In this document: positions 5,124 to 42,413 of the stretch, one piece after another | How the letters are laid out: the number at the start of each line of letters is the position of its first letter | How positions within the stretch are numbered: position 1 is the first letter of the stretch | DNA from: Hadesarchaea archaeon | Lineage (GTDB): Archaea > Hadarchaeota > Hadarchaeia > Hadarchaeales > WYZ-LMO6 | Assembly (NCBI GenBank): GCA_029259185.1 | Contig: JAPDJF010000030.1 | Span: 1 to 45,601 of the forward strand | Length of the DNA stretch: 45,601 nt | Reading direction: 5' to 3' | Position numbers and translations under genes: made by a program | The notes under the pieces: generated by a model | Seen by the model: the letters and a program-made list of their open reading frames with translations, nothing else | Database searches by the model: none | Told to the model about the DNA's origin: nothing

Positions 5124-6530
5124 ATGGGGTATAATTTTTTAAAAAGAAAGAAAACTTCTCTAGTGTTAGCCCGGTTGATTTCCGTCATTACACTCTCCAT
5201 CGTGCTGTCCTTGATTTTCCTCCCACCAGTTACTGGAGACTCAGTGGTTTATAGGATCCAAAAGACCTACGAGGTCTCCAACGAGAGTTCCACAACCGCA
5301 ACCAATGTGCAGGTGTTCATTTTCATCTTCGACAACGGTTATTTCGGATGGAACAACCAAACAATCCTCAACGAAGACATTCTACCCCTCGACTACACGA
5401 TCGAAGAGTGTGACGACAACCGAGTGTTGGAATTCTCACTCGGAACGCTTCGCCCGAATGAATCCCAGCTCATCTCCATAGAGCAAATCATCCGCGTCGA
5501 TGATGTGGAATTGACCATCGACCCATCAAAGGTGGGGGGTACTGTTCCTCCAGAGTTGTTTCCACTCACCCAGCCGGTTCCACACCTGTGGGAAAGTGAT
5601 GCCCCCGAGCTTGTGGAGAGGGTCAGAGAACTCACTGAGAACGAGAGTAACCTATACTGGAGCGCGAAAACCGTATTTGACTTCGTGAACGGATATCTCA
5701 CCTACCAACCCAGCGAGGCGGAACACAGCGCCCTTGAAGCATATCGTACTAGGGTGGGAGACTGTAGCGAATTCGCCCACCTCCTTATCGCCTTGATCAG
5801 GGCGATGGGTTTGCCTGCCAAACTCATCGTTGGATACGGATATCAACATGATAGGGAGACCGATCTCGAAGACATGGGGCATGCGTTTGCCTCCATCTAT
5901 CTACCAAGCGTTGGATGGCTCCCGGCCGACGAGACTTGGGGCTTGGGAGGGGAGTTCGGGGAGCTAAGCTGCGACCACCTGATCCTGTTCACGAGTGATG
6001 GATCCAACCTAGTGAGCAACGGACGGATCCGTATTCCGGGAGACAGCATAACCTACTCGTACATCGGTACGGATCCGCGAATCTCCCTCCACTTGCGAAG
6101 ATCGGAAATAACCCGCGAGGTTGCCCTTGAGACACAGCTCAGGACAGCGCCCGGATTAGAGGGAAAGACCCTCCATCTTTACGTAACGGTTAAGAACTCG
6201 GGGACAAGGAAGGTGGAAAACCTATGGATCTCGATTCATGCCGATGAGAACCATTTTGTCGTTCCCCCAGAGCATGTCCTGCCAAGTCTGGCTCCGAAGA
6301 GTGAGCAGACGATCACCTTCGAACTCGAGGTGAAAGAGAGTGTCAGGAGCGACCCGATTATGGTGAGGGTAGACTACGATACGTGCTATGGAAAATTTTC
6401 GTCTGAGAGTGAAGAGGTTCTGATCACCGTGAATATGCCCCAACTGCCCTCGGGAGGCGTGATGAGGTTACTCATTATCATGGGATTGATAGGGATCGTG
6501 GGTGCCATTGTAGCCCTGTTACGGCGGTAA
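5124..6530 (+). CDS. Membrane-anchored transglutaminase-like domain protein
   Basis: N-terminal hydrophobic signal/anchor; TRVGDCSEFAHLLIALIRAMGLPAKLIVGYGY...MGHAFASIYLPSVGWLPADETWG (Cys-His-Asp core); C-terminal TM helix plus RR. Confidence 0.85.
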   Translation: MGYNFLKRKKTSLVLARLISVITLSIVLSLIFLPPVTGDSVVYRIQKTYEVSNESSTTATNVQVFIFIFDNGYFGWNNQTILNEDILPLDYTIEECDDNRVLEFSLGTLRPNESQLISIEQIIRVDDVELTIDPSKVGGTVPPELFPLTQPVPHLWESDAPELVERVRELTENESNLYWSAKTVFDFVNGYLTYQPSEAEHSALEAYRTRVGDCSEFAHLLIALIRAMGLPAKLIVGYGYQHDRETDLEDMGHAFASIYLPSVGWLPADETWGLGGEFGELSCDHLILFTSDGSNLVSNGRIRIPGDSITYSYIGTDPRISLHLRRSEITREVALETQLRTAPGLEGKTLHLYVTVKNSGTRKVENLWISIHADENHFVVPPEHVLPSLAPKSEQTITFELEVKESVRSDPIMVRVDYDTCYGKFSSESEEVLITVNMPQLPSGGVMRLLIIMGLIGIVGAIVALLRR

Positions 6531-38837: not shown

Positions 38838-39398
38838 TTGATTTTAGAGTCGGAACCAAAAGAAGGATACCCTTCTGGACCTCGTAAAGCAGGAGTGATG
38901 AAGAACTATCGTGGATTGCTGAACGATCCGGAGGTCAAGCGGTGGTACGAGAACTTAAAAGCGGGATCGAAGATAACGGCCGACGTTTACCTTCGGAGGG
39001 TGGGGAACTTCTGTAAGATCCACAACACTACCCCCTCAGGACTGGCAACGATGCCCCCGAGAGAACTTGAAAATCTGCTCCTCGACTTCACGCGCTCCCG
39101 AGAAGGTGAGGGCAAGTTTGGGGGGTATATCGCATCGATCCTGAAAGCGATCAGGTCTTGGCTCGCACACAACCACCGTAAGCTCGATGTTAAAATAAAG
39201 ATCAGGGGGGCACAGCAAACCCCTTCGCTCAAAAATGAAAGGATCCGGACCAAATTCGGGCCGGCACGAATCCTCCTGGCGGGGGGCGAGAGAACTCGCG
39301 TCGCTTCGGTGCTCTTGGCGATGCAGTTGACAATATCGCGTTGCAATCCAAGCAAGTTTCATGTAGCTACACCTTTCCTTCAAGCCAGCCAATTTTAA
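38838..39398 (+). pseudogene. Truncated tyrosine recombinase/integrase (core-binding domain, catalytic domain lost)
   Basis: LNDPEVKRWYENLKAGSKITADVYLRRVGNFCKIHNTTPSGLATM...LRAIRSWLAHN-like (ILKAIRSWLAHNHRKL)...RILLAGGERTRVASVLLAM, then homology appears to end; sits directly 3' of tRNA-Arg. Confidence 0.75.
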
Positions 39399-39810
39399 CG
39401 TTATTTTTTCGATCGAACGTCGGGACGTACGGCTTGATATCCAAAAGAGGGGTGCCGTCGAGCATGTCGATACCCCGTACCTTCAAGATATTCCCCTTTC
39501 GTTCCAACAGCTCCACTACGGTGAGCCCTATTGGATTTGGCCTATTTGGAGACCTCGTGGCGAAAAGCCCGCGTGGAGCATCGTCCAGATAAGGTTTTAC
39601 CAGAAGGCCCGGCGAATCCAAGTTGATGGACTTGTGGAACTCGTACAAAATTATAAGGTGGGAGAAACCCTCGATGTCTTTTAGCCCTTCCTCGTATTTT
39701 TTGAAAACCTCGATCTCGCCGACTTCATTCGATCTGTAAGCTTGGTAGGGCGCGTCTCTGGGTTTTTTGTATGGTGTGTGGATTATCCCTATTGGTTTTA
39801 ATTTTCTCAT
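39367..39810 (-). CDS. TrmO/TsaA-like tRNA methyltransferase family (UPF0066)
   Basis: MRKLKPIGIIHTPYKKPRDAPYQ...FSHLIILYEFHKS...RGLFATRSPNRPNPIGLTVVELLERKGNILKVRGIDMLDGTPLLDIKPYVP. Confidence 0.93.
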   Translation of the reverse strand: MRKLKPIGIIHTPYKKPRDAPYQAYRSNEVGEIEVFKKYEEGLKDIEGFSHLIILYEFHKSINLDSPGLLVKPYLDDAPRGLFATRSPNRPNPIGLTVVELLERKGNILKVRGIDMLDGTPLLDIKPYVPTFDRKNNVKIGWLEGKV

Positions 39811-39835
39811 TCTATCACCATCCCCACCCCGCACC

Positions 39836-40453
39836 TCACGTATTGTTCCGGGAATGTGCGCGCCAACTTCTTTTTGTATGATGTACAGTGGCAGGGGAAA
39901 TCAATCTAACGCCTTTTAGAACGTCGAAATCACTAAATCCGTGAAAACCTCCAACGATGCCGTATATCTTGCCAAATTTGGATGCCGTATTTATGATGTT
40001 GTGCACTCCGGAATGAGCGCAGTCTGTGATTACTCCAAATACGCCTCTTTTGTCCAAACCAATTAACGATTGTTCTTTATAAGCACCTAACTCGCCTGTT
40101 GTAAATACATCTTTGTGTATTTGCATTGGTCCGCGAACTTCAACCAACTTTGTTTTTGCTGGGATCTCGTTTTTTAACCATTTGGAAAACGATGCCAGAG
40201 CGTACACAGAAAGATTTTGATTTTCTTCAAGTAGCTCTGATAGACCACCAGTGTGATCCCCATGCCCGTGCGACAATACAACGAATTTTATGTTGCTCGG
40301 ATTTATGCCTAATTTTTCCAGGTTATGCAACAAAGCTACGCCATCGTTATCCGTGTCAAATAAAATATCATCATCGATTAAACAGGAGAAACCCCAACCC
40401 GCTGTTAATCCTTTCTTTAACACTTCGTTGTCATAAACTACTGTTATTTTCAT
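39836..40453 (-). CDS. Metallo-beta-lactamase-fold hydrolase, C-terminally frameshifted
   Basis: MKITVVYDNEVLKKGLTAGWGFSCLID...VVLSHGHGDHTGGL...VITDCAHSGVHNI...GGFHGF; conserved tail CHCTSYKKKLARTFPEQYVRCGVG lies in another frame (39807-39896). Confidence 0.9.
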   Translation of the reverse strand: MKITVVYDNEVLKKGLTAGWGFSCLIDDDILFDTDNDGVALLHNLEKLGINPSNIKFVVLSHGHGDHTGGLSELLEENQNLSVYALASFSKWLKNEIPAKTKLVEVRGPMQIHKDVFTTGELGAYKEQSLIGLDKRGVFGVITDCAHSGVHNIINTASKFGKIYGIVGGFHGFSDFDVLKGVRLISPATVHHTKRSWRAHSRNNT

Positions 40454-40549
40454 CGCTGCCAGCTTCCGATTAGGGATCTTTCGTAATTCAATGAACACAG
40501 GTAGTTTATATGTGTTTATGTGCATATGCTTATAATAGGAGATGGGAAA

Positions 40550-40990
40550 ATGGCTTATGGTCAAGGAGGTTGGAGAAGAAGAAACATGTATTACCTCACC
40601 GGTCTGCCAGGATGGATGAGGTTCGGATATTTGACACAGACCGGACAAGTGCTTCAGCCTTCTCCAGCCCAAGTACCAGCGCAAATTTCAGTTCCCACTC
40701 ATGGGGACTGCGCTAATTTCAGGGATGGATTCTGCGCATTAAACGGTGCTGCTGTGGATCCTAGTGCCCCCGCGTGTCCAAGCTTCATACCGAAAAGTTC
40801 CACTCCAGCACCACAGACACCTTCAACGCACCCTATGTTTCAAGCATCAGCTGGTTTTCCTCCAGCACAAATGCCCCAGATACCTAAAGAGCAGGAAATC
40901 CAGATGTTGGAGTGGCAAGCAAGAATGGTGGAGCAACAATTAGAACAAATCAAAAAAAGGCTCGAAGAACTCAAAAAGGGGGTGAGATGA
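40550..40990 (+). CDS. DUF5320-like protein with Cys motif and C-terminal coiled coil
   Basis: MAYGQGGWRRRNMYYLTGLPGWMRFGY...DCANFRDGFCALNGAAVDPSAPACPSF...MPQIPKEQEIQMLEWQARMVEQQLEQIKKRLEELKKG. Confidence 0.7.
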   Translation: MAYGQGGWRRRNMYYLTGLPGWMRFGYLTQTGQVLQPSPAQVPAQISVPTHGDCANFRDGFCALNGAAVDPSAPACPSFIPKSSTPAPQTPSTHPMFQASAGFPPAQMPQIPKEQEIQMLEWQARMVEQQLEQIKKRLEELKKGVR

Positions 40991-41419
40991 ATGCTGTTTG
41001 GAATGGATCCCTATGGCTGGATGGGTATGTACGGATATCCATACTGGGATTGGAGATATAGGTGGTTCCCATGGTTGCCCACATGGTGGTGGACGGGAAT
41101 GTACGATCTCATAACACCTTTTACGGGAACACCAGGAATGCCCTACGGCCAACATAGCATGTACGCTCTAACGGCTGCACCATGGACAACCTATACACCG
41201 TACTACGCGCCACCCTACAGCACGTACGCACCACCGGCAACAGCAATGCCGAGCATGACCTACCCATCGCCATATGCACCGCCACCTTACCCAACTAGCA
41301 TGGAGATCCCTCAAATTCCGAAGGAACAAGAAATACAAATGCTTGAAAGCCAGGCGGCGGTGCTCCAGCAACAATTAGATCAGATCAAGAAGAGGCTTGA
41401 AGAACTCAGCAAAATGTAG
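40991..41419 (+). CDS. Trp/Tyr/Pro-rich protein with the same C-terminal coiled-coil motif
   Basis: MLFGMDPYGWMGMYGYPYWDWRYRWFPWLPTWWW...MEIPQIPKEQEIQMLESQAAVLQQQLDQIKKRLEELSKM; two nt after the upstream stop. Confidence 0.7.
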   Translation: MLFGMDPYGWMGMYGYPYWDWRYRWFPWLPTWWWTGMYDLITPFTGTPGMPYGQHSMYALTAAPWTTYTPYYAPPYSTYAPPATAMPSMTYPSPYAPPPYPTSMEIPQIPKEQEIQMLESQAAVLQQQLDQIKKRLEELSKM

Positions 41420-41483
41420 GCCCCAATAGCTTGTCAACGAGTTCGACAAGTAGGGCGAAGGATGCTATGATACATATGAGCCC

Positions 41484-42039
41484 TCAGTGAACTACCCAGC
41501 TCTCGCAGGGGGCTTCCTGCTTCATCCACCAGACTCGATTCCCTTCACAGGTGCGGTCATCCGCTTTCAGCCTTGCGGATCTGCGGGAGGTTACGGAGGT
41601 CTTGACCTCACAGGCGTTCGCTCGGGCCGTTCCAGCTCCCTATCGAATCCCTCAGGGACGTTCTGCGAAGTACCTCTCCTTCCCGCTTGACGATAACCCC
41701 CTTCACTTTTTCCTTAATCTTTCGGTGAAGCTTGATGGGGATCTACCGATTTTCGAGAGCACGAGCTTTCCGCTCTCAAGCTTGAAGCCCGACTGGTTGT
41801 AGTTCAGCGTCTTGAACCAGCCCCTTCCCTTGAACCGCAACTTCCCGATTTTTTTACCGCTCCGCTTTAGCCCAGCCAGAGCAAGCTTGGGTGTCCCCTT
41901 GCTTCAGCCTTATCCCCTTCTCATGCACAAAATTGAGTTCGGAGAGCAGGCGGTTGTAGAGCCACCTGCAAAGTGCCATGTGGTTCAGCTTCCGCTCGGC
42001 TGGCTTTGAAGGATACAGGCGGAACCTGTGGCTAAGCAC
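41484..42039 (-). pseudogene. tnpB: IS605-type tnpB pseudogene with RuvC core deleted; right end/omegaRNA-like scaffold retained
   Basis: N-term VLSHRFRLYPSKPAERKLNHMALCRWLYNRLLSELNF and KKIGKLRFKGRGWFKTLNYNQSGFKLESGKLVLSKIG; C-term NACEVKTSVTSRRSARLKADDRTCEGNRVWWMKQEAPCESWVVH*; only about 550 bp, with internal stops. Confidence 0.85.
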
Positions 42040-42413
42040 GCCCTTGTCCTTCCACATACCTTTTCAGCACATCGAGTGTTACCTGTCCAGTTGTGGCGAG
42101 AAAAATACGATGGAGACCAGAAAAACCATTTCCAGAGCTTTCTTTTTATCTACGCCGAGTTTCTCTCGATGCTATCGTTTTTATTGCAGACCTGGGTATG
42201 TCCAAGGTTGGCTTCGCCTTGAAGATCATGTGGAAGTGATCTTTGTCGCACTCCAAGTTTAGAACCTCGACTTGGAAACTCTCGCTTATCTCTCTCACTT
42301 TCTGCTTCAGCAAATCCACCACCTCGTTTTCAAGCACCTTTCTTCGGTATTTTACGACTTGAACTAGATGATACTGCAGGGCATGACTGAGTGTGCCCCC
42401 TTGTCCAACTCAT
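42032..42413 (-). pseudogene. tnpA: IS200-type Y1 transposase tnpA pseudogene (frameshifted)
   Basis: Fragments in different frames: LDKGAHSV / HALQYHLVQVVKYRRKVLENEVVDLLKQKVREISESFQVEVLNLECDKDHFHMIFKAKPTLDIP / ATTGQVTLDVLKRYVEGQGRA*. Confidence 0.85.

Follow-up and report, generated by a model that had tools for sequence, protein, structure and literature searches.

The window analysed here, a stretch of 45,601 nucleotides, is contig C9 of a 1.27-Mb Hadesarchaea genome. It carries two small adjacent genes, A and B, which form a block with a divergently oriented MBL-fold gene and a gene for TrmO. The features of the block and its borders are:

39370..39834, minus strand: TrmO (tRNA t6A37 methyltransferase), at the outer edge of the block (PF01980, 3e-39; TIGR00104, 3.5e-46)
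39836..40453, minus strand: MBL-fold hydrolase, divergent from A (PF00753, 2.1e-9), frameshifted near the C-terminus
40505..40511, plus strand: TATA-box-like TTTATAT, in six aligned intergenic regions (consensus read by eye)
40516..40535, plus strand: palindromic operator candidate TTATGTGCATATGCTTATAA, conserved in relatives with A-B
40550..40990, plus strand: gene A, 146 aa; N-terminal head RRRNMYYLTGLPGWMRFGY, Cys module, coiled-coil tail
40700..40777, plus strand: Cys module of A (H51-x2-C54-x7-C62-x13-C76)
40868..40978, plus strand: coiled-coil tail of A, DUF5320-like
40991..41419, plus strand: gene B, 142 aa; aromatic head RYRWFPWLPTWWWTGMY, Pro/Tyr-rich middle, coiled-coil tail
41303..41413, plus strand: coiled-coil tail of B, DUF5320-like
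41857..42057, minus strand: IS605 OrfB/TnpB N-terminal remnant (PF12323, 2.2e-6), past the downstream block border
42149..42337, minus strand: IS200-type transposase (Y1_Tnp) remnant (PF01797, 3.1e-10)

The ATG at 40550 is the likely start of A and is preceded by an AGGAGA ribosome-binding site (40537–40542); the stop codon of A is followed directly, without a gap, by the start of B at 40991. Both genes are intact open reading frames, with dN/dS values against relatives (0.17–0.26) that are similar to those of the relatives' own copies. A first-pass annotation of this DNA had reported two adjacent reading frames with nearly identical ends and completely different N-termini, and this was confirmed: the tails align over 37 residues, 28 of them identical (76%, E 2e-16), while no alignment between A and B exists outside the tails. 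The Cys motif of A and the Trp/Tyr/Pro-rich stretch of B were found as quoted there. The span given for the pair, beginning at 40453, needed correction, as the adjacent genes are real but it is the divergent MBL gene that starts at 40453, and the reading frame of that gene is itself frameshifted. The pair had also been presented as an undescribed system. A literature search found no functional study or biochemical data for any member of the two families, although the genes are already annotated in Pfam terms. PHROG searches with A and B gave no match, and comparison with solved structures returned generic coiled coils and weak matches only.

Distribution and gene neighbourhood

A scan of GTDB genomes revealed 192 places that encode relatives of A. 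The best 80 of these 192 loci were analysed, a set that was picked by similarity to A and in which many loci are ended by contig borders, and counts from it are not unbiased frequencies. The 80 loci, mostly from MAGs, span ANME-1, ANME-2, other Methanosarcinales, Thorarchaeota, Baldrarchaeota, Odinarchaeota and Bathyarchaeota, together with bacterial phyla (e.g. Armatimonadota, Cloacimonadota and Bipolaricaulota). No relatives were confirmed in viral contigs and, given also the empty PHROG search, a viral origin was rejected.

Co-occurrence of the pair outside this genome, which the first-pass annotation had named as the test of its proposal, was found: in 40 of the 80 loci A has a B-type gene on its own strand no more than 600 bp away. 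Within the same order the pair is present, complete or cut by a contig end, in genomes G010, G012, G015, G016, G017 and G026 (twice); it was looked for and not found in the same-family genomes G001–G003. At least one of the Mrp/NBP35, NifX-type and MinD-like genes occurs in 77 of the 80 loci, with a NifX-type gene in 74 and an Mrp/NBP35 P-loop carrier in 45. All 109 NifX-type proteins of these loci match PF02579 when scanned singly. The Mrp neighbour matches PF10609 (2.3e-97); the likeness to archaeal ApbC/Nbp35 Fe-S carriers belongs to this neighbour and not to A or B. MTH1175/NifX-like and MBL genes had been named as neighbours of such proteins, and both adjoin the pair in the relatives' loci.

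The Hadesarchaea gene order begins with D-head and C-head miniproteins (head types are described below), a NifX-type gene, a two-domain NifX-type gene, two MinD-ferredoxin genes, a zinc ribbon, ZIP and DUF89. It continues with TrmO-MBL, divergent from A-B, and then Mrp, DUF364, thioredoxin, DUF1847 and radical SAM, some genes being missing in some genomes. TrmO occupies the same place in the G010, G015, G016 and G026 loci. The window's genome has this cassette split, with the NifX/MinD operon on contig C3 (L033), Mrp-DUF364 on C28 (L139) and A-B on C9. In genomes G008 and G009, where Mrp or the entire cassette is retained, the pair survives only as decayed relics, so A-B is dispensable.

The shared C-terminal tail

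Across a 33-residue tail, 70 of 99 nucleotides match between A and B. As synonymous sites are saturated, the likeness of the tails points to old, protein-level conservation and not to a recent duplication or an assembly artefact. The relation to DUF5320 proposed at first was upheld by sub-threshold matches: A scores 24.9 bits (E 4.6e-5) and B 24.8 bits (E 5e-5) against PF17253, both below its gathering score of 27 bits. Only the tails match, covering profile positions 59–99 in A, B and their relatives, while the heads fall outside the profile. Scores above 27 bits were found in relatives (34.7 bits for L051:7953-8426 and 47.6 bits for one NifX-fused tail). Matches to PF17253 were obtained for 80 of 84 A-type proteins (at 0.001) and 13 of 39 B-type proteins, and a similar tail is found on C-head and some D-head aromatic miniproteins of related loci. 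Since it is also fused to NifX-type proteins (59 of 109), the tail looks like a common assembly tag rather than a private A-B lock. In ANME-1/Methanosarcinales loci most B-type proteins are tail-less, which means that A-B cooperation cannot everywhere depend on tail pairing. Thus, of the earlier idea that a shared helix joins A and B, the tail common to both remains, and its exclusiveness to the pair does not.

A 3-4 hydrophobic spacing runs across four heptads in the A, B and NifX-type tail sets. The eight a/d positions (6, 9, 13, 16, 20, 23, 27 and 30 of the tail) are hydrophobic in at least 0.88 of the tails in the A and NifX sets, and likewise in the B set except for 0.69 at the first. Tail-tail pairing is predicted from these heptads. 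In the AlphaFold model of A the tail, helix 113–145, is the sole confidently predicted part, and in the relative L048 the same tail as that of B is predicted as helix 134–164. The heads are of low confidence (mean pLDDT 56.8 and 51.9), with helices of at most three residues.

Decayed relics of the B tail lie at L142:10146-10294 (G009) and L013:1501-1611 (G008), where the Mrp carrier is retained. A further match to the B tail, on contig C44 (E 0.03), includes internal stop codons and was taken as chance.

Heads and the Cys module

Four head types were distinguished: A, PGWMRFG; B, C-x2-FPWLPRWWW; C, WWPRG (the "third" protein); and D, PFSYLPPW. Across 84 aligned A-type proteins the head shows no variation at G, PGW, R and G, and about 24 further positions are almost fixed. 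The B-type head follows the pattern C-x2-FPWLPR-x-WWTGMY. The Pro/Tyr/Gly-rich middle of B varies in length among B-type relatives, in which the head and the tail are the conserved parts; ANME-1-type B proteins, of about 62–78 aa, include one conserved head and little low-complexity sequence. A D-head (PFSYLPPWQRP) and a B-head (CARFPWLPRWWW) occur together in single miniproteins at L227:1308-1604 and in L209 (motifs at 5727 and 5631 on the minus strand); judged by these sequences, the heads behave as swappable modules.

Every one of the 42 B-type proteins taken from the 80 loci has the Cys of the B-type head (pattern C-x2-F), and the window's B has Tyr in its place. This Cys is nearly invariant among B-type proteins and lost from the window copy, which makes the "aromatic, non-metal" role first given to B doubtful. 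A Cys-to-Tyr change in the C-head protein of the window's genome was considered as a loss correlated with that of B and was rejected, as G010 is without the same Cys too.

The Cys module is an insert in Hadesarchaea A, and most A-type proteins are without it. It was found in eight of 297 genomes searched, six from Hadarchaeota and two from other archaea, and the H-x2-C-x7-C-x13-C ligand positions are invariant among eight aligned modules. A free-standing 45-aa miniprotein that adjoins ABC-transporter-like genes (L155:1471-1608) has C-x2-C-x7-C-x13-C, i.e. the same spacing with Cys for His, and this ligand swap argues for a metal site in the module of A. With four metal-ligand-like positions, the module is plausibly such a site, in line with the initial suggestion of one metal-capable subunit. 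A free 98-aa Cys-module protein adjoins a NifX-type gene in the Bathyarchaeota locus L122.

A palindrome in the A-B promoter

Alignment of the MBL/A intergenic region for six loci revealed the TATA-like box followed by a palindrome with the consensus TTATGTGC-N4-GCACATAA. The window site has one mismatch, and the number of palindromes expected from window shuffles is 0. Because A-B promoters were the source of the pattern, only the sites elsewhere count as independent evidence. Throughout the phylum Hadarchaeota 28 two-sided palindromes (up to two mismatches) were found. Twenty of these stand before genes for A, C/third or D-head proteins or for Mrp: a script counted 19, and the twentieth is in L211, ahead of a D-head gene that runs off the contig. 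Most of the other eight fall within coding sequence. The same pattern read backwards, as a control, gave three forward and five reverse matches in 28 genomes. The 75 loci L050–L124 yielded two more sites of this two-sided kind by script, both in non-Hadarchaeal loci: in Ca. Hecatella the site is followed by a D-head gene, and in a Bathyarchaeota genome by A.

In the window's genome the palindrome precedes both A-B (C9) and the unlinked NifX/MinD operon (C3), and thereby links the two although they are not neighbours there. As it sits downstream of the TATA box and ahead of the start codon, this candidate operator is probably a repressor site.

History of the window copy

The block of about 2.1 kb (39357–41473) has approximately 76–85% DNA identity to f3 genomes; the alignment is unbroken in L038–L040 and split into at least two pieces in L041 and L042. 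Fourfold-site differences are 0.17–0.44 for A, 0.28–0.37 for B, 0.32–0.41 for MBL and 0.36–0.41 for TrmO. Those of AtpB are 0.63–0.65 in the same genomes and 0.58 in the same-family genome G001. The lower divergence of the block genes, which are short and offer few sites, suggests that the block moved horizontally between Hadarchaeal families. The IS200/IS605 remnants lie a few hundred bases past its downstream end.

Compared with five relatives, the C-terminus of MBL reads SPATVHH... for SPCHCT..., the last conserved CHCT motif being gone by the frameshift. The window's MBL is probably broken; as B has also lost its conserved Cys, the window copy may be only partly functional. A reading frame of 186 aa (38838–39398), which by eye we took to be integrase-like, ends at the block's upstream border. 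It had no match in Pfam, PHROGs or NCBIfam, and this identity was rejected.

Proposed role in metal-cluster assembly

Mrp/NBP35 proteins carry Fe-S clusters, and Desulfovibrio MrpORP is an Mrp NTPase fused to a NifX/ORP-type domain, in which Fe-S is bound in both domains and transferred to proteins of the ORP complex (PMC6345978). Similarly, the relatives' loci hold an Mrp/NBP35 carrier, NifX-type proteins and MinD-like ferredoxin ATPases; unlike in MrpORP, the carrier and the NifX-type domain are separate proteins in the A/B loci. Against the MrpORP equivalog model NF041136 (cut-off 450) a relative's Mrp carrier scores 353 bits and NifX-type proteins 34–76 bits; carriers match the NTPase part and NifX-type proteins the C-terminal domain, all below the cut-off. 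A search of the MrpORP paper (PMC6345978) for DUF terms found none.

Since the neighbours match both parts of MrpORP separately, we propose, with moderate confidence, that A and B serve as small scaffold or adaptor subunits, accessory to an ORP/Mrp-like system of the anaerobe type in which metal-sulfur clusters are assembled. Its parts would be the Mrp/NBP35 P-loop carrier, the NifX/ORP-type (Nitro_FeMo-Co) proteins and the MinD-like ferredoxin ATPases. The four-heptad tail would gather differently headed subunits, NifX-type carriers included, into one assembly. For the aromatic heads the docking site would be offered by the P-loop carrier, by the NifX domain or by the client; the H/C3 module of A would hold either a metal (Zn or Fe-S) or a cluster in transit. 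The palindrome would co-ordinate A-B expression with the NifX/MinD operon, by repression. Conservation of the neighbourhood is not proof of physical interaction, and the proposal is weakened by the tail-less B-type proteins of the ANME-1/Methanosarcinales loci, by the relics in G008 and G009 and by the absence of the pair from G001–G003. More tentatively, the loci may belong to a widespread and undescribed machine with which anaerobic archaea, and bacteria in some cases, assemble metal clusters. It would comprise a kit of modular aromatic miniproteins with at least four interchangeable head types and a tail common to NifX-type carriers, expressed from a single palindromic operator in Hadarchaeota and Bathyarchaeia at the least; this wider picture is somewhat less likely than not.

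Several other readings were weighed. The one to be taken most seriously concerns the window alone, where the pair could be the decaying remainder of a block gained by horizontal transfer and serve no function today, the family's role being as proposed above. The MBL frameshift, the Cys-to-Tyr change in B, the nearby IS605 remnants, a block divergence below that of AtpB and the decayed pairs in G008 and G009 are all consistent with decay. Yet A and B are intact and evolve at dN/dS values like those of the relatives' copies, and the operator-like palindrome is retained with one mismatch, so we regard this as somewhat unlikely. It is less likely still that the proteins are membrane or pole anchors, with aromatic/Gly-rich heads in or on the membrane and a tail that tethers NifX-type and MinD-like proteins. 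The heads are Trp/Tyr-rich, MinD-like partners occur within the same loci and MrpORP, an Mrp/NBP35 protein, is reported to localise to the cell pole (PMC6345978). Against an anchor are the Pro- and Gly-rich head motifs, the Cys module of A, better suited to metal binding, and head helices that never exceed three residues in AlphaFold, though at low confidence.

Binding of RNA or DNA through RG/GRG-rich heads, with the coiled coil providing multivalency, appears improbable. Many B-type proteins do have RG-rich heads, and a Methanosarcina mazei DUF5320 protein is listed with a putative G-quadruplex-binding motif (PMC7565180); that motif is a computational prediction only, RG repeats are scarce in A and B of the window, and the neighbouring genes are of the metal-cluster and not the nucleic-acid kind. 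The least probable reading, in our judgement, is the low-complexity, phase-separating scaffold. The Pro/Tyr/Gly-rich middle of B and the low predicted order would suit it, but it is the head and the tail that are conserved while the middle varies in length, and the short ANME-1-type B proteins contain little sequence of low complexity.

The building and delivery of metal clusters in anaerobic archaea, including the methane-oxidising ANME, is poorly known. Several families of unknown function are here tied together by the tail, by gene order and, in two lineages, by the operator-like palindrome, and the carrier proteins that the A and B families should bind can now be named. One prediction is that NifX-type proteins co-purify with those of the A and B types; another is that the operator will lead to the identity of the regulator and through it to the signal.

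NikR and further palindrome-like sites

Genome G000 includes a perfect palindrome (C2:63747-63766; L176:5748) before a D-head aromatic miniprotein beside nikR, near a MinD/CooC-like ATPase. This adjacency resembles NikR-controlled nickel genes, but the distributions of NikR and the site disagree. NikR is present in G001 and G002, both without a palindrome match, and was not found in G011, G016, G026 and G027, all of which have palindrome sites. NikR was rejected as the regulator, as its presence and that of the palindrome do not match across the 28 genomes.

Three other sites were seen in G000. A weaker palindrome (C2:68033-68052; L176:10034) is flanked on one side by a RACo-like gene and on the other by an FlpD/formate-dehydrogenase-like operon. 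A palindrome-like site at C26:6498-6517 (L224:1299) falls among several GCACATAA half-sites within one stretch, and another (C25:1224-1243; L223:1224) is located 57 bp before an acyl-CoA-dehydrogenase-like gene.
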